From positions 80,302 through 144,301 of the forward strand of contig CACMTR010000003.1 of the NCBI GenBank assembly GCA_902616715.1: DNA of 64,000 nt, in the 5' to 3' direction. Shown here piece by piece: positions 5,465 through 57,924 of the stretch; the stretch's first letter is position 1, and each line of letters opens with the position of its first letter. Made by a program: the position numbers and the translations under genes. Below the pieces are notes generated by a model. The model did no database searches. It saw only the letters and a program-made list of their open reading frames with translations, and was not told where the DNA came from. This DNA is from an uncultured SAR86 cluster bacterium. GTDB lineage: Bacteria; Pseudomonadota; Gammaproteobacteria; Magnimaribacterales; AG-339-G14.

Positions 5465-6170
5465 AAGAGTCTCCCAAATATACTTTTTTTACAGTTTCAT
5501 CTTTAAGAATTTTTGCAGATGAGCCTTCTGCAATAATGTTTCCTGAATTAATAACAAAAATTTTTTCACAAATATCAGTAGTGGCCTTTACATTATGATC
5601 ACTAATTAATATACCCAAACCTTTTTTGGTTAACTTTTGAATTAATTCCTTTAGATCGTCTATTGCCAAGGGATCTATTCCTGCGAAAGGTTCATCTAAC
5701 ATAATAAATTTTGGATTTAATGCAATTGACCTAGCGATTTCAACCCTTCGTCTTTGACCACCAGAAAGCTCTCTACCTTTTTGATTAGAAAGTGATGAAA
5801 TTTTAAATTCTTCCATAAGTTCAGTAATTCTCTTTTCAATTTGCTGTTTTGAAATTGTTTTTGTTTCTAAAGAGGATCTTAAATTATCTTTAACTGACAG
5901 ATTCCTAAAAATTGAAGGTTCTTGAGGTAGATATACTAAGCCTGCATCAGCCCTTGAGCTTAATGAAAGATTAGTAATTTCAGAATTATTCAGTAAAACC
6001 TTCCCATTAGTGGGTTTGGTTAATCCAGCTAAAATATAAAAAAGTGTTGTTTTTCCGGCTCCATTAGGACCTAGTAAACCGGTAATTTCATTCAGACCTA
6101 TATTGATTGAAATCTCATTTAAAATAGAGTTCTTACCATAAGACTTGCTTATTTTAATCGTTTCAATCAT
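5454..6170 (-). CDS. lptB: LPS export ABC transporter ATP-binding protein LptB
   Basis: Cytoplasmic ATPase of the LptB2FG complex, which extracts LPS from the inner membrane and drives it to the cell surface. The 238-aa product shows Walker A GPNGAGKTT (34-42), signature LSGGQ (135-139), Walker B FIMLDE (155-160) and the switch His192 in SDHNV. Length matches the family (about 240 aa). Its start overlaps lptC by 8 bp and its end overlaps the RpoN-box gene by 11 bp. Confidence 0.97.
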   Translation of the reverse strand: MIETIKISKSYGKNSILNEISINIGLNEITGLLGPNGAGKTTLFYILAGLTKPTNGKVLLNNSEITNLSLSSRADAGLVYLPQEPSIFRNLSVKDNLRSSLETKTISKQQIEKRITELMEEFKISSLSNQKGRELSGGQRRRVEIARSIALNPKFIMLDEPFAGIDPLAIDDLKELIQKLTKKGLGILISDHNVKATTDICEKIFVINSGNIIAEGSSAKILKDETVKKVYLGDSFEN

Positions 6171-47795: not shown

Positions 47796-48824
47796 ATGTC
47801 AACAAAAAATACAAAAAAAGAAGAAGTATCTTCAGATAAATCAAAAAATTTAGCTTCAGCAATCAATCAAATTGAAAGTCAGTTTGGTAGTGGAACAATT
47901 ATGAGAATGGGGGATAAAAAAGTTGAAGATATTCCTAGCATTTCTACTGGATCATTAGGATTAGATTTGGCGCTCGGCGTAATGGGTCTTCCGCGAGGAA
48001 GAGTGGTTGAAATATTCGGTCCCGAATCTTCAGGTAAAACCACACTTACACTTCAAGTTATTGCTGAGTGCCAAAAACTTGGAGGGACAGCAGCTTTTGT
48101 AGATGCTGAACATGCTTTAGATCCAATATATGCAGCAAAATTAGGGGTAAAAGTTGATGATTTATTATTGTCGCAACCCGATACAGGTGAACAGGCCCTC
48201 GAAGTAGCAGATATCATGGTCAAGTCAGGTGGAGTAGATGTACTTGTAATAGATTCTGTAGCCGCTCTAACTCCTAGAGCTGAGATAGAAGGCGAAATGG
48301 GTGATCATCATGTTGGTTTACAAGCTAGGTTAATGTCTCAAGCCTTAAGAAAAATAACTGGAAATATCAAAAGATCTAATACTTTGGTAATTTTTATAAA
48401 TCAAATACGAATGAAGATTGGAGTAATGTTTGGCAACCCAGAGACAACATCAGGTGGAAATGCTTTGAAATTTTATTCTTCAGTTAGACTTGACATAAGG
48501 AGAATAGGAACAGTTAAAGATGGCGATGAGGTAAGCGGAAACGAGACAAGAGTTAAAGTAGTTAAGAATAAAGTTGCCCCACCTTTTAGACAAGCAGAAT
48601 TCCAGATTTTATATGGCAAGGGTATTAATAAAGCAGGGGAATTATTAGATATTGGAGCTGAACACAAAATTGTTGAAAAAGCTGGCGCTTGGTATTCTTA
48701 TAATGATGAAAAAATTGGCCAAGGAAAAGTTAATGCTAGTGAATTTTTGAAGCAAAATCCAAAAATCATGAAAGAGATTGAGGATAAAATTTATAAAGCT
48801 ATCAAAGAATCAGAAATAAATTAG
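47796..48824 (+). CDS. recA: Recombinase RecA
   Basis: Strand-exchange ATPase and co-protease for LexA. The 342-aa product has Walker [10 protein letters not shown] (75-83), Walker [15 protein letters not shown] near 150, loop L1/L2 regions ([46 protein letters not shown] in short blocks) and an acidic C-terminal end. recX does not follow: proS converges 2 bp after the stop codon. Confidence 0.99.
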
Positions 48825-48826
48825 AT

Positions 48827-50089
48827 TTAATTTTTCAGTCTATTAATAATTTCGTTGAGTTTTATTACTTCTTTCTGTTGGTTATTTCTTTTTATTAATT
48901 CTACAGTTTGATCGCTTGATACCTTGTCTCCTATGACTAATTGATAAGGCACGCCTACTAAATTTGCATCTCTAAATTTTACTCCAGGGTTTAAATCTCT
49001 ATCATCAAAAAAAACGTCTATATTATTTTCTTTTAGTTCTAAATATAGTCTCTCTGCTTCAGAATTAATTTGTTCATTATTCTTTTGATTTATAAGAATT
49101 ATGTAACATTTAAAAGGTGAAATGGATTCAGGAAATAATATTCCATCATCATCAAAATTTTGTTCAATCGCAGCTGCAACGATTCTTGAAACACCAATTC
49201 CATAACAACCCATAAATATTTCTTTCAAAACATTATCTTTTTGTACTGTCAATCCCATTGCCTTGCTGTACTTTGTCCCTAATTCAAATATATGACCTAC
49301 TTCAATTCCTTTTTTTAAGCTAAGTTTTCCGTTGCCATCGGGACTGGGCATTCCACTAATTTTTTTAGGATTCTTTTCATCTAATAGCTCAATATTGATA
49401 GCAAAATCACTTTTGTCGCTAAATGCTAATGTATCCTCTCCAGAGTCAGCCAGGACATGAAATTCTTCAGATTTGTCACCTCCGATTGACCCTGAGTCTG
49501 CTGAAACTACTTTGTAATCAAGTCCAATTTTATCAAATATCTTTTTGTAAATTTTTTTCATATTTAAATAAGTTTCATGCATTGAAGCTTCATCAATATC
49601 AAATGAATAAGCATCTTTCATTAAGAATTCCCTTGCTCTCATGACTCCAAATCTTGGCCTAATTTCGTCTCTAAATTTGTCTTTTATTTGATAAAAAGTT
49701 TTTGGAAGGTCTTTTGGACTTGTAATTTCTTTTTTAGCAATATCAGTAATTATTTCTTCATGAGTAGGTCCTAGATAAAAATCTCTTTGATTTCTGTCCT
49801 TGAACCCAAGTAATTCAGGACCATATTCTTTTGATCTACCTGACTCGTCCCATAAATCTTTAGGTTGGACTAAAGGCATAATAATTTCCAAACAATTTCC
49901 TTGATTGAGTTCCTTTCTAATAATATTCTCTACTTTTCTTAGTATTAAAGTACCAAGAGGCAACCAAGTATAAATGCCTGAAGCGATAGGCTTTATCATG
50001 TTAGCTTTAATCATTAATTTATGACTAATTAATTCTGCATCAGAAGGCGTGTCCCTAAGAGTTTTGAAATGATATAAAGAAGCTTTCAT
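48827..50089 (-). CDS. proS: Prolyl-tRNA synthetase lacking the INS editing domain
   Basis: Charges tRNA(Pro) with proline. The 420-aa product is a bacterial-type class II enzyme by its motif 2 region (FRDEIRPRFGVMRAREFLMKD, around 139-159, in conserved order) and motif 3 (MGCYGIGVSRIVAAAIEQ). In E. coli (572 aa) a domain of about 180 residues between SDYAANIE and PSPDGxGxL clears Ala-tRNA(Pro). Here SDFAINIE (227-234) is followed after only 13 residues by PSPDGNGKL (248-256), so the domain is cleanly missing. Short ProRS forms are known in alphaproteobacteria. C-terminal anticodon domain is intact. Confidence 0.95.
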   Translation of the reverse strand: MKASLYHFKTLRDTPSDAELISHKLMIKANMIKPIASGIYTWLPLGTLILRKVENIIRKELNQGNCLEIIMPLVQPKDLWDESGRSKEYGPELLGFKDRNQRDFYLGPTHEEIITDIAKKEITSPKDLPKTFYQIKDKFRDEIRPRFGVMRAREFLMKDAYSFDIDEASMHETYLNMKKIYKKIFDKIGLDYKVVSADSGSIGGDKSEEFHVLADSGEDTLAFSDKSDFAINIELLDEKNPKKISGMPSPDGNGKLSLKKGIEVGHIFELGTKYSKAMGLTVQKDNVLKEIFMGCYGIGVSRIVAAAIEQNFDDDGILFPESISPFKCYIILINQKNNEQINSEAERLYLELKENNIDVFFDDRDLNPGVKFRDANLVGVPYQLVIGDKVSSDQTVELIKRNNQQKEVIKLNEIINRLKN

Positions 50090-50445: not shown

Positions 50446-52209
50446 ATGAGCTCAAAAATTTTCAATCTCTCTATTTCTGATGAGGGGAAAACAGCAACTG
50501 TTAGCGGATGGGTCGAAAAAGTTAGAGACCATGGAGGAGTAATTTTCATAGATCTAAGAAAAGATCTTGATCTTGTTCAAGTGGTTATTGAGCCAAGTGA
50601 AAAAGAAATTTTTACAGTTGCTGAAAACATTAAAAACGAGTTTGTGATTGAAGTATCTGGCCTTGTAAGAAAGAGGCCAGATGGTAAGGAAAATACAAAA
50701 ATGAATACGGGAGAAATAGAAGTTTGCGCAAACAAACTTCATGTCTTTTCTAAAAGTAAACCTTTGCCTTTTCAATTAGACGAGTATTCAAATGCAGGAG
50801 AAGAAATAAGGCTTAAATATAGATATTTAGATTTAAGAAGGCCGGAGATGCATGAAAATCTTATCATGCGTTCTGAAATCAATAACTTCGTAAGAAACTT
50901 TTTAGTTAAAAAAGGATTCGTAGATATAGACACTCCTATGATGACCAAAGCTACTCCTGAAGGTGCAAGAGATTTTTTAATTCCTAGCAGAGTCAATCAA
51001 GGTAAATTTTATGCTCTTCCTCAATCACCACAACTATTTAAGCAACTCTTGATGGTAAGTGGTTTTAGTAAATATTTTCAAATAGCTAGATGCTTTCGAG
51101 ATGAAGATACTAGAAAAGACAGACAACCAGAATTTACTCAGATTGATATCGAGATGTCATTCACTAGTTGCGAAGAAATAATGAATATTTCAGAAGACTT
51201 AATTGTTAAATTATTCAAAAAAATATTGAAAGTTGATCTCGTAAAATTTCCTAAAATCACTCATAAAGAATCTATGGAAAAATATGGCACTGACAAACCA
51301 GATTTAAGGAATCCAATCATTCTTCATGATGTTAAAGATTTATTTATAGATTCTAATTTTAAGGTTTTCAAAGATCCAGCGAATGATGAAAAATCGAAAC
51401 TAGTAGCATTGAAACTTAAGATAGACATTAGCAGAAGTCAAATTGACGAGTACACAAAATTTGTGGGGAATTTTGGAGCTAAGGGTTTAGCTTATATTAA
51501 AGTAAATGACATATCTGATATTGAAAAAGGACTCCAATCTCCTATTGTTAAATTCTTATCTAAAACAGAATTACAGAACTTAGTGAAAAAATTAGATCTT
51601 AATAACGGCGAAGTTGTTTTTTTTGGTGCTGGAAACAAAAAAATTGTTTTAGATTCTATGAGCGCTTTTAGACAGAAACTTGCAGAAGATTTTGATTTAA
51701 TCGATAAAACCTCCTGGAAGCCAGTTTGGATTACAGATTTCCCGATGTTTGATGAAACTTCTGAAGGAACACTAACTCCAAGCCATCATCCTTTTACAAA
51801 ATCGTTAAGTACTTTGGACCTATTAGAAAAATCTCCTGAACAAGCCATATCAGAGGCATATGACTTAGTTTTAAATGGCTTTGAATTAGGAGGAGGTTCT
51901 ATGCGTATTCATGACATAGAAGAACAAAAAAAAATTTTTTCTCTTTTAGGAATTAGTAATGAAGAAGCTAAACAAAAATTTGGATTTTTTCTTGAAGCTT
52001 TAGAGTATGGATGTCCCCCTCATGGAGGAATAGCTTTTGGTCTGGATAGAATAGTGATGTTAATGGCCAATGAAGATTCTATTCGCGATGTAATAGCTTT
52101 TCCTAAAACTCAATCTGCAATGTGTTTAATGACTGATGCTCCAGATAAAGTTTCTAACGATGAACTAGAAGATTTATCAATTAAATCTACTTTTGAGGAG
52201 ACAGAGTAA
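50446..52209 (+). CDS. aspS: Aspartyl-tRNA synthetase, probably non-discriminating
   Basis: Bacterial-type class II synthetase of 587 aa with the OB-fold anticodon domain, class II core (motif 2 FRDEDTRKDRQPEFTQIDIEMSF in order near 220; motif 3 GIAFGLDRIVMLM near 527) and the inserted GAD domain. His29 (VRDHGG) and Gly80 (RKRPDGKEN) match the residues that in Pseudomonas aeruginosa go with charging both tRNA(Asp) and tRNA(Asn); E. coli has Leu and Lys-type residues there. With GatCAB present, an indirect route to Asn-tRNA is plausible. Followed directly by yebC. Confidence 0.95.
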   Translation: MSSKIFNLSISDEGKTATVSGWVEKVRDHGGVIFIDLRKDLDLVQVVIEPSEKEIFTVAENIKNEFVIEVSGLVRKRPDGKENTKMNTGEIEVCANKLHVFSKSKPLPFQLDEYSNAGEEIRLKYRYLDLRRPEMHENLIMRSEINNFVRNFLVKKGFVDIDTPMMTKATPEGARDFLIPSRVNQGKFYALPQSPQLFKQLLMVSGFSKYFQIARCFRDEDTRKDRQPEFTQIDIEMSFTSCEEIMNISEDLIVKLFKKILKVDLVKFPKITHKESMEKYGTDKPDLRNPIILHDVKDLFIDSNFKVFKDPANDEKSKLVALKLKIDISRSQIDEYTKFVGNFGAKGLAYIKVNDISDIEKGLQSPIVKFLSKTELQNLVKKLDLNNGEVVFFGAGNKKIVLDSMSAFRQKLAEDFDLIDKTSWKPVWITDFPMFDETSEGTLTPSHHPFTKSLSTLDLLEKSPEQAISEAYDLVLNGFELGGGSMRIHDIEEQKKIFSLLGISNEEAKQKFGFFLEALEYGCPPHGGIAFGLDRIVMLMANEDSIRDVIAFPKTQSAMCLMTDAPDKVSNDELEDLSIKSTFEETE

Positions 52210-52944
52210 ATGGCAGGTCATTCTAAATGGGCAAATATTAAACACAGAAAAGGTAGACAGGATGAAAAAAAACAAAAGATTTTTTCAAAGTTAATTAGAG
52301 AGATTACAGTAGCATCTAAATTAGGCGGAGTTGAAGCATCTGATAATCCAAGACTAAGGCTGGCACTAGATAAAGCTCTAGGAGCTAATATGCCTAAAGA
52401 TACCATTGAAAGGGCTATTTCTAGAGGGGCAGGAGACTCAGATTCAGGAAATTTAGAGGAAATAACTTATGAAGGTTATGGCCCTAACGGAGTAGCTGTA
52501 TTAATAGAAGCAATGTCAGATAATAAAAATAGAACTGTTGCAGAGGTTAGGCATGCATTTTCTAAATGTGGTGGAAGTTTAGGAACGGATGGCTCAGTAT
52601 CCTATTTATTCTCTAAAAAAGGTCAAATTATTGTAAAAGAATCTAATCAGGAGAAATTATTAGAGCTACTCATTTCTGAAGGAATAGAAGATATAGAACC
52701 ATCTAATGAAGACTTAACTTTAATTTTTACAGAGCCTAATAATATTCATAATGTAAAAAATGTTTTACTCAAAGAAGGAATAGAAATCATTGAGGCGGAA
52801 ATGATTATGGATTCCAGTCAAAACGTAGAATTAAACTCAGAGGAAACAGAAAAGGTTTTAAAATTACTAGAAAATCTAGAGGACTTGGATGATGTTCAAA
52901 ACGTATTTTCAAATGCAGAGTTTTCTCTCGACCAGGTGACTTGA
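52210..52944 (+). CDS. yebC: YebC/PmpR-family protein
   Basis: 244-aa protein of a universal family linked to translation of difficult stretches and to transcriptional control. Family blocks: MAGHSKWANIKHRKGRQD at the start, ASDNPRLRLALDKALGANMPKDTIERAI near 40-70 in intact order, and YEGYGPNGVAVLIEAMSDNKNRT near 92. It abuts the aspS stop, is followed after one base by a nuclease gene, and would normally be followed by ruvCAB. Confidence 0.97.
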   Translation: MAGHSKWANIKHRKGRQDEKKQKIFSKLIREITVASKLGGVEASDNPRLRLALDKALGANMPKDTIERAISRGAGDSDSGNLEEITYEGYGPNGVAVLIEAMSDNKNRTVAEVRHAFSKCGGSLGTDGSVSYLFSKKGQIIVKESNQEKLLELLISEGIEDIEPSNEDLTLIFTEPNNIHNVKNVLLKEGIEIIEAEMIMDSSQNVELNSEETEKVLKLLENLEDLDDVQNVFSNAEFSLDQVT

Positions 52945-52945
52945 T

Positions 52946-53353
52946 ATGACGAATTCCAGAAATAAAGGTGCTGCATTTGAAAGAGAAATTGCTAAATTAA
53001 TAAACGAAGAATTTTCTTTATCAATTCCTTTAAAGAGAATTTTGGAACAAACCAGAGAAAAATTTTTACCTGATTTAATTTTAGGCAGGTGGTATTTAGA
53101 ATGTAAACGTTATGGCCATGGAAATGAACCAATAGAGAAATGGTGGGATCAAGTTATAGATTCTACAAAAGCAGAAGGATTTCCTGCTCTTATTTATAAG
53201 TTTAATAATAGGCCAATAAAAGTCAGAGTTCCACTTCATAGTGTTAATCCTGAATTACAAAAAAACAATAACAATACATGCGATCTTCTCTGGAAAGATT
53301 TTATTTATCTGCTAAAGAATTTGTATATTGAAGATATAGAAAAACACAAATAA
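52946..53353 (+). CDS. PDDEXK nuclease resembling phage/Hjc-type Holliday-junction resolvases
   Basis: 135-aa single-domain protein with a complete PD-(D/E)xK site: Glu12 in KGAAFEREIAKL, Asp43 in LPDLILG, and Glu52-x-Lys54 in YLECKRYG. The order (helix with GxxFERE, basic stretch KRILEQTR, PD, ExK, then WWDQV) resembles small phage-encoded PDDEXK endonucleases and archaeal Hjc resolvases. It sits between yebC and ybgC, precisely where ruvC-ruvA-ruvB stand in relatives; no ruv genes are present. Gene spacing and base composition match its neighbours, so any transfer is old. Resolvase activity is inferred. Confidence 0.78.
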   Translation: MTNSRNKGAAFEREIAKLINEEFSLSIPLKRILEQTREKFLPDLILGRWYLECKRYGHGNEPIEKWWDQVIDSTKAEGFPALIYKFNNRPIKVRVPLHSVNPELQKNNNNTCDLLWKDFIYLLKNLYIEDIEKHK

Positions 53354-53358
53354 TAAAA

Positions 53359-53766
53359 ATGTCTTCATTACAAATAAGAATTTACTTTGAAGATACTGAT
53401 GCTCAAGGCCTAGTTTATAACTCAAATTATCTTAAATTTCTGGAAAGAGGACGAACAGAGTTTTTAAGAAATTTGGGTTATGACCAAAAAAAACTCTTAA
53501 AAGAAGGATTAATATTTGTTGTAAAGAAAGTAAATTTAGATTTTCTTAAGCCAGCAGAATTAGATGAAATAATAGAAGTTAAGAGTAAAATTGAATCAGT
53601 TAAGAAAGTTAGTTTTACTTTTGTTCAAGAAATATTTGATTCAAACCAAAAAAAAATATTAGACGCAAATGTTAAATGTGGCTGCTTGGAAATTAAAAAT
53701 AAGAAACCTTTTAAAATACCTAATGGGTTATACCAATCAATGAAAGAAAATATCGATGGCATTTGA
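53359..53766 (+). CDS. ybgC: Acyl-CoA thioesterase YbgC (Tol-Pal associated)
   Basis: 135-aa hotdog thioesterase. The N-terminal block IRIYFEDTDAQGLVYNSNYLKFLERGRTEFLR holds the catalytic Asp of the 4-hydroxybenzoyl-CoA thioesterase subfamily (given here as adjoining short blocks). In gammaproteobacteria it heads the tol-pal operon and associates with phospholipid synthesis enzymes. It overlaps tolQ by 11 bp and follows the nuclease gene by 5 bp. Confidence 0.94.
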   Translation: MSSLQIRIYFEDTDAQGLVYNSNYLKFLERGRTEFLRNLGYDQKKLLKEGLIFVVKKVNLDFLKPAELDEIIEVKSKIESVKKVSFTFVQEIFDSNQKKILDANVKCGCLEIKNKKPFKIPNGLYQSMKENIDGI

Positions 53767-54424
53767 ATTAAATCTTTTATCTCTTTTCATTCAAGCAAGC
53801 TTAGTAGTTAAATTAGTTCTAGTCACTTTGCTGATTGTCTCTTTTGTTTCTTGGTGGTTTATCATCGAAAAATACATAACTTTTAAAAGAGTTGAAAAAG
53901 ATATCTATGAGTTCAATCAACTCTTTTGGGGTAAAAATAGTTTAGATAATATTTTTTCTAAAGTTTTAAATAAAGAAAAATTAGTAGGAATTGAACAGAT
54001 TTTTTTTGTAGCATACAAAGAATTTAAAGATTCTAAAGATAAAGGCATTAATTTTGAATCGATAAAAAAGATCATAGAAATCTCTATTTCTAGAAACGAA
54101 GAAACACTATCTAAAAGACTCTCTTTCTTATCAACTGCTGCTTCAGTAAGTCCTTATATAGGTTTGTTTGGAACCGTTTGGGGAATAATGAATGCTTTTG
54201 GCGGGTTATCTCAGTTAACTCAGGTCTCTATAACAGTCGTAGCTCCTGGTATTTCCGAGGCACTGATAGCTACTGCTCTTGGTCTTTTTGCTGCTATTCC
54301 AGCTTTAATTTCTTATAACTGGAATTTGAATAAAATAAATACTTTTATCAATGAGTACTCTAATTTTTCTGAAGAACTCATCATTATCCTTGCAAAAGAA
54401 ATAGATGAGAACAAGAGACTCTAA
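53756..54424 (+). CDS. tolQ: Tol-Pal system proton channel subunit TolQ
   Basis: Inner-membrane motor subunit (MotA/ExbB family) that with TolR uses proton flow to drive TolA. The 222-aa product has three membrane spans (about 15-35, 125-147, 160-182) and the family region YIGLFGTVWGIMNAFGGL and ISEALIATALGLFAAIPA, with the conserved Thr and Pro residues. Overlaps tolR by 20 bp. Confidence 0.97.
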   Translation: MAFELNLLSLFIQASLVVKLVLVTLLIVSFVSWWFIIEKYITFKRVEKDIYEFNQLFWGKNSLDNIFSKVLNKEKLVGIEQIFFVAYKEFKDSKDKGINFESIKKIIEISISRNEETLSKRLSFLSTAASVSPYIGLFGTVWGIMNAFGGLSQLTQVSITVVAPGISEALIATALGLFAAIPALISYNWNLNKINTFINEYSNFSEELIIILAKEIDENKRL

Positions 54425-54824
54425 AAAATATTTAGCTGAAATTAATGTTATTCCTTATGTGGACATTATGTTGGTCCTTCTGTTAATTTTTATGGTAACA
54501 GCGCCTTTCTTAATTCAAGGAATTAAAATTGATTTACCTCAGGTTGATTCAGCACCAATCGAAGATTTTGAAAATAATTCCTTAACTATTTCCATTGATT
54601 CAAAAGGAAATTATTTTCTTGAACTTGATACTTTTAAAAACATTTCTATGGACTTAATAAAATTAGAATCTGAATTAATAAAAATAATTCCTAAAAATAA
54701 AATTGAAATTTTTATCCGCGCAGATTCACAGGTTATTTTTAATGATGTAGCGTTGTTAATGTCTTCTTTGCAAAAACTCAAACCGAATTCAATCAACTTT
54801 CTTACAGAGCCAAAAGATGATTAA
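54405..54824 (+). CDS. tolR: Tol-Pal system protein TolR
   Basis: Bitopic motor subunit (MotB/ExbD family). The 139-aa product carries the N-terminal block EINVIPYVDIMLVLLLIFMVTAPF, with Asp19 in the membrane span as the expected proton carrier, followed by IDLPQVDSAP and a periplasmic domain ending in FIRADSQVIFNDV. It overlaps tolQ (20 bp) and tolA (8 bp). Confidence 0.97.
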   Translation: MRTRDSKKYLAEINVIPYVDIMLVLLLIFMVTAPFLIQGIKIDLPQVDSAPIEDFENNSLTISIDSKGNYFLELDTFKNISMDLIKLESELIKIIPKNKIEIFIRADSQVIFNDVALLMSSLQKLKPNSINFLTEPKDD

Positions 54825-55407
54825 TTTGTATCTAGGATTTTTTTTATCTTTTTTTGGACATTTAATAGTTTTATTAATGGTTCTTATAGACTTTTCTATC
54901 TTCTTTCCTAATAAACAGAATTATGAAGTCATTCCAATTGGCTTTATTCTAGAAAATAAAGAAAAATCTCATTCACAAGTAATTCAAGAAAAATTATTCT
55001 CTCTTAAGGAACTAGAAATAAATAATCCTGAATTCACTAATTTGATTAGTTCTGAAGAAAATATAAATACAAACGGTCTTTTAATTTCAGTAAAACAGTC
55101 TTTGGATAAATTGGAAGAAGAAAAATTTAAAAAGACTATTATTATAATTCAAAAAAAATTTATTGAATTATGGAATAAACCTTTTGTTCTTAATGAAGAT
55201 ATAAAAGTTTCCATCAAAATAAAATTAGCACCTTCTGGAGAAATTTTATCTAAAACTTTAATTGAGTCGAGCGGTAACGATAAATTTGATGATTCAGCAA
55301 TGAAAGCTGTTAGTAAAATAAGTTTCCTTAAAGAAGTATCTAATTTAAGGAGAGAGGATTTTGAGAGGTATTTTAGAGAAATTAATCTAGTTTTTAAATC
55401 AAGATAA
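54817..55407 (+). CDS. tolA: TolA, short form without the long helical domain
   Basis: Periplasm-spanning link between the TolQR motor and Pal/TolB. The 196-aa product has an N-terminal membrane anchor (about 5-29), a short helical middle with EEEKFKKTIIIIQKKFIELWN, and a TonB/TolA-type C-terminal domain (VSIKIKLAPSGEILSKTLIESSGNDKFDDSAMKAVSKI region). E. coli TolA is 421 aa with a helical domain of over 200 residues. Position between tolR and tolB makes the call firm, though sequence similarity is low. Confidence 0.87.
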   Translation: MINLYLGFFLSFFGHLIVLLMVLIDFSIFFPNKQNYEVIPIGFILENKEKSHSQVIQEKLFSLKELEINNPEFTNLISSEENINTNGLLISVKQSLDKLEEEKFKKTIIIIQKKFIELWNKPFVLNEDIKVSIKIKLAPSGEILSKTLIESSGNDKFDDSAMKAVSKISFLKEVSNLRREDFERYFREINLVFKSR

Positions 55408-56679
55408 ATGAAAATTTTCTTTATTATTTTAATTTATTTTTTTAGTTTAAATTTTGAAGCTAAGTTAAAAATAGAAATTATAAAAGGATCTGAGGAACTC
55501 CCTGATATAGCCATCGTTCCTTTCAAAAGTAGTTTTGGAAGGCAGTTTGAATATGATGTCAGAGATTTAATCAATGAAAAGTTAACGCTATTTGGAGAGT
55601 TTGATTCTCTCGAATTAGAGAGAATGTTATCTTTTCCTTTTAATGAAGAAAGTTTTTATAGAAGAGATTGGGAGCTTCTATCTATGGACTACGTAGTTTT
55701 TGGAGAAGTTGATGAAACGGAAGGAAATTTGGTTCTAAATTATTTTGTTGCCGACATTGGCCTTAAAAGAATTATTCTTCGTGGAGATATAACAGGAGAA
55801 AAAAATAATATCGAATTAATTACAAAAAAAATTAGTGATAGAGTTTATGAAAGCATCACAGGTTTAAAAGGGATTTTTAATACAAAACTTGCGTACATTT
55901 TAAATCCAGAGCCAAATAAATACAGTATTTGCGTCTCGGACATTGATGGAGATAATGAAGAAATTTTATTTTCTTCAAATTCACCTTTAATGTCTCCCGA
56001 CTGGTCATCAGACGGTAATAAGCTTGCATATGTGTCTTTTGAAAAAGGTTTTGCAGAGATTTATATACAAAACTTATTGACGGGTATAAGAGAAACTATT
56101 CCAACTCTTGGAATGAGCAAAAGTGCTCCAGTTTGGTCTCCTGATTCTAAAAATTTAGCATTTGTAATTTCTATGTCTGGAAATCCAGATATTTATAATT
56201 ACAACCTAAAAAATAAAAAAATTTCTAGACTAACTAGTCATTATGGAATTGACACAGAACCAGCTTGGTCACCAGACGGAAAAAAATTATTATTCACATC
56301 AAATAGGTCGGGAAGTCCCCAAATTTTTGAGATTAAAATATCTAATAAGAGAATAAAACGTGTGACTTTGGATGGAAGCTATAATGCAAGAGCTAGATTT
56401 TTTCCTGATGGAAAAAATATTGTTTTTGTTCATGGAAATAATGGTATTTTTCATATTGCCACTAGAAATCTTAAAGATAGATTTGTAAATATTGTAACTC
56501 AAACAACATTAGACGAATCACCAACAATTTCTCCTAACGGACACATAGTTATCTATTCAACGAAAAAAGAAAATCAGGGTTATTTAGCGGGTATAACTAT
56601 CGATAGAAAGTCTAAATTTCAACTACCAGTCAAGAAGGGGTCTGTTAGAGAGCCATCATGGTCTCCTTTTTTGAACTAA
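55408..56679 (+). CDS. tolB: Tol-Pal system beta-propeller protein TolB
   Basis: Periplasmic protein that cycles between TolA and Pal. The 423-aa precursor has a signal peptide (about 1-18), an N-terminal alpha/beta domain (IAIVPF-like [12 protein letters not shown]) and a six-bladed WD40-like propeller with repeats [30 protein letters not shown] and [22 protein letters not shown]. It starts directly after the tolA stop. Confidence 0.97.
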
Positions 56680-56691
56680 AAAAGTCTGCAT

Positions 56692-56731
56692 TTGTCTAAA
56701 AAAGATATATATAAATTATAATAATTAGGAG
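56692..56731 (+). promoter_or_regulatory. Candidate internal promoter and Shine-Dalgarno of pal
   Basis: The 57-bp tolB-pal gap is the only real gap in the tol cluster. It has TTGTCT (56692-56697), a 19-bp spacer and TATAAT (56717-56722), then a strong AGGAG (56727-56731) 5 nt before the pal ATG. Separate extra transcription of pal fits its known abundance. Such a short leader would leave the Shine-Dalgarno at the 5' end of the message. Confidence 0.45.
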
Positions 56732-56736
56732 ATATC

Positions 56737-57201
56737 ATGAAATTTTTAAAAACTTTACCTATAATTTTTTTAATATTTTTAATAAGTTGTTCAACACAAG
56801 TAAGTGATTCTATCAGTCAAACAAATTATAAAGAAGTTGAAGGAATAAACTTTGATGAAAAGGATAAAATTGATACTTCTCTAGAGGATAAAGTTTTCTT
56901 TGATTTTGATAAAAGTACTCTAAATAACGATACAAAGAAAATTCTCTCTCAATATGTTACAGAATCAGAAAAGGCAAAAATTATAAGACTTGAAGGTCAT
57001 TGTGATGAGAGAGGCACAAGAGAATACAATTTAGCTCTTGGTGAAAAAAGGGCAATTGAGGTAAAAAATTACTTAATAATTCAAGGAGTGTCTTCGTCAA
57101 AGATTAAAATTATTAGTTATGGAGAAGAGAAACCTATCAGCTTTGGTTCTACAGAATCAGATTGGAAACAAAATAGAAGAGTTGAGATTGCATTATTTTA
57201 A
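56737..57201 (+). CDS. pal: Peptidoglycan-associated lipoprotein Pal
   Basis: Outer-membrane lipoprotein whose OmpA-like domain binds diaminopimelate in the wall. The 154-aa precursor has a lipobox (FLISC) at residues 14-18, a short linker, and the OmpA-C motif VFFDFDKSTLNNDTKK near 52, LEGHCDERGTREYNLALGEKRA near 85-105 (blocks adjoining) and ISYGEEKP near 125, with the conserved Asp and Arg for DAP binding. Followed by cpoB after 15 bp. Confidence 0.98.
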   Translation: MKFLKTLPIIFLIFLISCSTQVSDSISQTNYKEVEGINFDEKDKIDTSLEDKVFFDFDKSTLNNDTKKILSQYVTESEKAKIIRLEGHCDERGTREYNLALGEKRAIEVKNYLIIQGVSSSKIKIISYGEEKPISFGSTESDWKQNRRVEIALF

Positions 57202-57216
57202 TCAGCTTTTATCAAA

Positions 57217-57924
57217 ATGAATAAGTTTCTTTTATCTTTAATTCTAGTGTTTCTCTCTGGAAATTTTCTAGCACAGAGTCAACAAGAATCTTTAGAAATA
57301 TTGTTGGAAAAATTGAATAAACTTGAAGAAGAAATAGCTAATCTTTCAAATAATTTAGATCAAAATACCTATGAGCTTCAAAGAATTGAAGATGCTAATC
57401 AACTAAGATATATGGACCTAGATAAACGCATACACCAGCTTGAGACTTTAATCCTTCTATCAAATGAAGACGACAACCAAGATCAAATAGTATCGGGTGA
57501 TATCGATGAAAACCCTTTATCTGATCTCATAGCCAATGACGAATCTGAAGAGGAATTTTTGTTATGGTCTAATTCTTTAAAACTTATTGAGAATTCTAGA
57601 TATTCAGAAGCTGCTGAAAACCTCAGATTATTGATTTTATCTTTTCCTCGAGGAGAATATTCCATTGAGGCTTATTTTTATTTAGGAGATATTTATTTTC
57701 AACAACAAATGTACCAAGATTCTATTGAGACATTCAATTCACTTCTTATTAATTTTCCCGAAAATAATAGAACTCCGGAAACCATCTTCAAATTAGGATT
57801 AAACTTTCTTCGACTTGAGGATGAAATAGCTGCTATAAGCAATTTTAATAATGTTATACAAAATTATCCTGAATCCAGTGCAGCCATCCTTTCAGAGGAA
57901 GAATTAGTTAAACTTAATAATTGA
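57217..57924 (+). CDS. cpoB: Cell division coordinator CpoB (YbgF)
   Basis: Periplasmic TPR protein that links Tol-Pal constriction with PBP1B in E. coli. The 235-aa precursor has a signal peptide (about 1-19, cleavage after FLA), a coiled coil for trimerisation (about 25-72: LEILLEKLNKLEEEIANL), and C-terminal TPR repeats (AYFYLGDIYFQQQMYQDSIETF; KLGLNFLRLEDEIAAISNF). Last gene of the tol-pal cluster. Confidence 0.94.
   Translation: MNKFLLSLILVFLSGNFLAQSQQESLEILLEKLNKLEEEIANLSNNLDQNTYELQRIEDANQLRYMDLDKRIHQLETLILLSNEDDNQDQIVSGDIDENPLSDLIANDESEEEFLLWSNSLKLIENSRYSEAAENLRLLILSFPRGEYSIEAYFYLGDIYFQQQMYQDSIETFNSLLINFPENNRTPETIFKLGLNFLRLEDEIAAISNFNNVIQNYPESSAAILSEEELVKLNN

Follow-up and report, generated by a model that had tools for sequence, protein, structure and literature searches.

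The SAR86 order has most probably replaced RuvABC, in place and only once, with a phage-derived resolvase that resembles the archaeal enzyme Hjc. This is a non-orthologous replacement: where other Gammaproteobacteria have ruvC, ruvA and ruvB, these genomes have a single small nuclease gene. The function of this nuclease is inferred, without biochemistry. Few recombination genes of bacteria are as conserved as those for RuvAB and a partner resolvase (PMC1193525).

A preliminary description of this DNA had suggested such a swap at the ruvCAB locus. Order-wide presence and absence, synteny and a predicted fold now support it, with the cleavage of junctions still an inference.

The nuclease gene and its borders

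The gene is found at 52946..53353 on the forward strand of the window, by which is meant the whole stretch of 64,000 nucleotides that was analysed, from a SAR86 host in the Gammaproteobacteria. It starts with ATG, forms an open reading frame and encodes 135 amino acids. Its annotation as a Hjc-like PD-(D/E)XK nuclease rests on matches to PF24608 and phrog_244, a structural model and residue invariance. The predicted active site is made up of E12 (52979-52981), R13, R31 (53036-53038), D43 (53072-53074), E52 (53099-53101) and K54 (53105-53107).

Two genes, both on the forward strand, border the former ruvCAB site. To the left is yebC (52210..52944), assigned by reading frame, synteny and spacing, and to the right ybgC (53359..53766), assigned by reading frame and synteny. 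Further out, again on the forward strand and assigned by reading frame and synteny, are the conserved upstream neighbour aspS (50446..52209) and the conserved downstream block tolQ-tolR-tolA-like-tolB-pal-ybgF (53756..57924).

The preliminary description had reported a lone 135-aa gene between yebC and ybgC, a complete site of E12, D43, E52 and K54, and the presence of recA. All three hold up. The frame is open over its full length, and the four residues belong to a larger set that is identical in 38 of 38 SAR86 sequences (R5, K7, G8, E12, R13, R31, Q35, D43, E52, K54, Y56, W66, W67, Q69, P80 and K85). The recA gene, with its Walker motif GPESSGKT, is located at 47796..48824 on the forward strand, about 4 kb upstream of the nuclease gene.

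Next to recA, the prolyl-tRNA synthetase at 48827-50089 on the reverse strand is of the short form, with 420 amino acids. The usual gammaproteobacterial enzyme is longer.

Spread across the order

A profile of 27 sequences was used to search 203 genomes of the SAR86 order for the nuclease gene. It is present in 181 of these, in 4 out of 4 families and 22 out of 22 genera, almost always as a single copy. Among the 22 genomes without it, 18 also have no yebC match, in 3 the contigs break off within yebC or just past it, and in the last one the sole yebC contig looks foreign. Because none of the 22 has an assembled SAR86 locus, every genome in which that locus is assembled carries the gene.

The arrangement yebC-nuclease-ybgC is seen in 64 of 65 GTDB loci; the remaining locus is short, with no ybgC found downstream. 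Fifteen further loci from the four families read aspS-yebC-nuclease-ybgC-tolQ-tolR-tolB-pal, except for the one from the fourth family. Surveyed across the clade, the interval after yebC contains the nuclease wherever the locus was read. The sole fourth-family locus read, L236 (G191:C4), has no ybgC that could be found between the nuclease and tolQ.

For the nuclease gene, dN/dS among near relatives is 0.04-0.14; some pairs are close to saturation at synonymous sites. The gene is under purifying selection. This matters for the idea that it is merely a phage remnant or selfish nuclease which ended up at a ruvCAB deletion by chance, with no role at junctions but possibly one in, for example, anti-phage defence or restriction. 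That the family is of phage type fits such an idea, as does the presence of restriction and defence nucleases among the fold relatives, at lower scores. It fits poorly with a gene that is kept in one place throughout the order, at these dN/dS values and with an invariant active site. No phage genes adjoin the chromosomal gene in the loci that were read. Moreover, its start is one base away from the yebC stop in the window, and from -1 to +10 bases away over the 13 loci measured, a spacing that would indicate translational coupling. A chance remnant is thus very unlikely.

Absence of RuvABC and RusA

RuvC (PF02075) is not found in any of the 203 order genomes, with 8 control genomes testing positive. 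The RuvC-negative set includes 40 genomes that are at least 90% complete, and several genomes on a single contig. Of 274 genomes sampled evenly from the class Gammaproteobacteria, 260 do have RuvC.

RuvA (TIGR00084) is absent from 202 of the 203 genomes. The one match above the cut-off is on a foreign-looking contig of 3.25 kb, beside one long transporter-like open reading frame, and the genome concerned has no strong match to RuvB. For RuvB_N the order delivers only weak AAA+ cross-matches, at 27-36 bits, in frames of around 420 and 530 amino acids. These sizes suggest, by inference, that the frames are ClpX and DnaX. RusA (PF05866) is likewise found in 0 of 203 genomes. An intact ruvABC elsewhere would have refuted the preliminary description, and in these searches of the order there is none.

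In other Gammaproteobacteria, yebC is followed by ruvC-ruvA in 12 of the 12 loci read. In 7 of those, ybgC and tolQ come next, after a gap that fits ruvB. It follows from this comparison that the swap is exact, with ruvCAB out and one small gene in. It had been claimed earlier that relatives carry ruvCAB at this spot. This is right for other Gammaproteobacteria, but not for the order itself, which is without ruvCAB throughout.

It might be objected that the ruv genes are present and were missed, either in incomplete genomes or because their sequences have diverged. Many of the genomes are indeed partial, and that of the window is 85.7% complete. This objection is already contradicted by the RuvC counts, which include the 40 genomes at or above 90% completeness and are set against positive controls and the class sample, and by the ruv locus itself, which is assembled and has the nuclease in its place. 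Assembly gaps as the cause of the absence are ruled out on the same grounds. Hardly any probability remains for this objection.

Among the sampled class genomes, 11 outside SAR86 also have neither a RuvC match nor the SAR86-type nuclease (G205, G206, G225, G240, G256, G274, G295, G331, G411, G438 and G470). Some of these are small and nearly complete, like G240, which is 1.1 Mb and 98% complete.

RecG and the proposed mechanism

Most of the order has RecG. Full-length matches are found in families f1, f3 and f4 and in part of f2, and the genome of the window is among them (664.7 bits). Five genera of f2 (g6, g7, g11, g12 and g13, with for example genomes G092 and G100) have no full-length RecG match. 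Their best matches in this search are at E-values of about 1e-95 to 1e-110, which are probably Mfd, or are far weaker. These five genera include genomes of one or two contigs. If the absence of RecG is confirmed, these f2 lineages would lack any canonical branch-migration helicase.

Because RecA is present and RuvABC and RusA are gone, junction resolution is the likeliest role of the nuclease. The proposed course of events is that the ancestor of the order lost the block of ruvC, ruvA and ruvB that lay between yebC and ybgC-tolQ, and that a single phage-derived Hjc-like PD-(D/E)XK nuclease took both its place and its job. By inference from Hjc, the enzyme would most likely be a homodimer. This dimer would bind the four-way junctions made by RecA and cut opposing strands, using a Mg2+-dependent site of acidic, metal-binding residues (E12, D43, E52) together with K54, and the resulting nicks would be sealed by ligase. 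RecG would take on any branch migration that is needed. The substrate and its cleavage, the dimer, the transfer from phage to cell and the functional replacement are all inferred. YqgF was not among the families searched, and could share in the junction work.

Family assignment

The 135-aa protein matches Pfam family PF24608 (PDDEXK_15, 'Phage putative PDDEXK endonuclease') with an E-value of 1.9e-10 and 41.3 bits, against a curated cut-off of 27. It also matches phrog_244 ('RusA-like Holliday junction resolvase') at 3.8e-13. The tests for membership of this family are passed on profile score, on a complete PD-(D/E)XK site and on the family signature.

No profile match is found in the protein for RuvC (PF02075), RusA (PF05866), RecU (PF03838) or Hjc (PF01870), and NCBIfam provides no name for it. 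Of 59 family members, 9 do match PF01870, weakly, with a best E-value of 3.1e-4. This means that the nuclease is presumed to work like Hjc, by inference only, yet is not a member of PF01870. The PHROG label 'RusA-like' is ruled out as a family assignment by the missing PF05866 match and the Hjc-like fold.

Structure comparison

The AlphaFold2 model of the nuclease has a mean pLDDT of 90.5. With this predicted model as the query, Foldseek against the PDB returns Hjc throughout ranks 1-12. A second structural aligner has Hjc/Hje at ranks 1-10, with Z scores of 7.9-10.6. The best of these superpositions has a Z of 10.6, at 2.6 A over 101 residues with 25% identity. Below them in the second aligner are SPARDA and DUF820-type nucleases, with a Z of about 7, and RecU at 6.5. 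Restriction enzymes rank below Hjc in both comparisons. There is no Vsr among the matches listed, which does not exclude one.

A PDB sequence search with the nuclease itself, or with query A2, gives no meaningful match. A profile of the phage relatives gives five, with E-values of 0.065-0.52. Each of these is weak by itself, and they are informative because all five are Hjc. In the profile alignment, the four catalytic residues E, D, E and K of the phage relatives fall in the Hjc positions. In Hjc these residues are E12, D42, E55 and K57 (PMC6555300).

Some caution is in order, as COG4636, the function of which is open, has also given Hjc-like fold recognition (PMC551604). On the predicted model, Hjc scores about 3 Z units above the COG4636/DUF820 fold type, and the evidence from locus and context is added to this. 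The preliminary description had seen a pattern like that of phage-type and archaeal resolvases, which is borne out by the family match and the predicted fold. It would have been undone by a structure clearly of another PDDEXK class; on the predicted model, the structure is not clearly of such a class.

Phage relatives and origin

On viral contigs, 112 relatives of the nuclease were found, of which 80 were kept, and there are further relatives in phage records. All 59 aligned family members match PF24608/phrog_244. Phage copies are seen in recombination modules. In Roseobacter phages, a relative sits beside a PD-(D/E)XK nuclease, an ssDNA-binding protein and a helicase. In a Klebsiella phage, ligase, Sak4, SSB and a Cas4-type exonuclease are a few kb away at most, and in a lambda-like Pseudomonas phage it is downstream of NinB and a recombination-enhancement protein. 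Prophage-like loci in other Gammaproteobacteria have it near a RecE-like exonuclease or SSB.

On viral contigs L110-L116 (including L111 and L113) there is a copy with around 62% identity to its SAR86 counterpart, surrounded by genes for endolysin and for structural parts of the virion. The contigs are possibly SAR86 phages, and possibly donors or recipients of the gene. That they are mislabelled host DNA is ruled out, since they have no yebC or tol genes and do have phage lysis and structural genes.

In the tree, which has a midpoint root only, a single viral sequence joins 38 SAR86 sequences in a group (100/99) within the phage diversity. The placement of this viral sequence is not settled, and a clade of SAR86 alone is neither established nor excluded (p-AU 0.374). 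The gene has apparently been captured from phages, where the direction from phage to cell is inferred. Going by the sequences, a single capture at the base of the order would be the simplest reading.

The lysis and structural regions in which some phage relatives are found would suit a debranching or packaging role equally well, and this counts against a dedicated resolvase. The nuclease could be a general enzyme for branched DNA or flaps, active for example in debranching or fork trimming and retained from a phage replication or packaging module, with junctions being resolved by YqgF/RuvX, or with resolution being dispensable because RecG dissolves them. The closest viral copies are among lysis and structural genes, and RecG is indeed widespread in the order. 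Promiscuity on branched DNA is common among phage resolvases (PMC3864405), and a resolvase role has been proposed for YqgF (PMC1193525). What such an enzyme does not account for is that the gene sits exactly at the lost ruvCAB site, and that five genera seemingly lack RecG too. The fold margin also favours Hjc over other PDDEXK enzymes. A general nuclease is therefore clearly the less likely option, but it can't be dismissed, and an Hjc-like resolvase remains the best explanation.

A different putative resolvase at the same spot

SAR86 bin G095 contains a foreign-looking contig, L274 (G095:C26, 12081 bases), with a 97-aa protein at 5578-5871, between yebC and tolQ. The contig has a GC content of 28.8%, its yebC is only 47% identical, and the upstream genes are different. 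Its origin is perhaps alphaproteobacterial.

This protein matches phrog_2002 ('Holliday junction resolvase') at 4.5e-10, and shares 76-84% identity with the majority of the viral proteins found. The viral homologues adjoin genes that resemble the small and large terminase. For a model of one of these homologues (pLDDT 76.9), the best structural matches are Hjc, with modest Z scores of 6-7. A phylum search for the 97-aa nuclease came up with 0 out of 174, in a sample with no known holder, and is hence uninformative.

The contig is a hint that another lineage has made such a replacement independently. It is conceivable, with doubt somewhat outweighing support, that different phage resolvases have independently filled the yebC-tol slot in more than one marine lineage, and that some SAR86 genera resolve junctions without RuvAB or RecG. 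If so, chromosomal recombination in the RecG-less genera would proceed without a canonical branch-migration helicase.

Comparison with known systems

The nuclease shares its chromosomal position and presumed role with RuvABC, but has no RuvA or RuvB partners. RuvC itself has an RNase H-type fold. RusA is a phage-borne resolvase that acts without RuvAB, and a relative of the nuclease occupies a similar region in a lambda-like phage. Unlike RusA, the SAR86 nuclease does not match PF05866, and RusA is absent from the order.

Archaeal Hjc/Hje (PF01870; PDB 1gef, 1hh1, 1ob8, 2wcw) is similar in size and fold, in the KG..(x)ER motif with which helix 1 starts, and in the order of the four catalytic residues. 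The SAR86 nuclease differs in its longer R31-D43 loop, its WW.Q helix and its bacterial or phage host. With phage PDDEXK_15 (PF24608/phrog_244) it shares the signature R.KG...ER, LEQ, D, ECK, WW.Q, P.LIYK, but in SAR86 it is encoded by a core gene of the chromosome, in single copy at the ruvCAB site, rather than by a phage gene.

The precedent is RecU of the Firmicutes (PF03838), also a PD-(D/E)XK resolvase with a related fold, which stands in for RuvC across an entire bacterial group. There, RuvAB is kept, and RecU rarely adjoins the RuvAB genes (PMC1193525). In SAR86, by contrast, RuvAB is lost, and the newcomer occupies the former ruvCAB site.

Non-orthologous replacement of a resolvase is therefore known. 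What is new is that it is in place, order-wide and phage-derived, and that RuvAB is also lost. No open-access paper was found that joins SAR86 with ruvC or 'Holliday junction'; most subscription papers were outside this search.

The finding provides a functional handle on a large family of phage nucleases so far named only 'putative'. It also makes testable whether a lone resolvase is sufficient when RuvAB is missing and, as seems to be the case in some genera, RecG as well. If true, it would mean that a virus-derived enzyme can take over a housekeeping step of recombination. As SAR86 is common in surface seawater, the replacement bears on recombination in natural marine populations.
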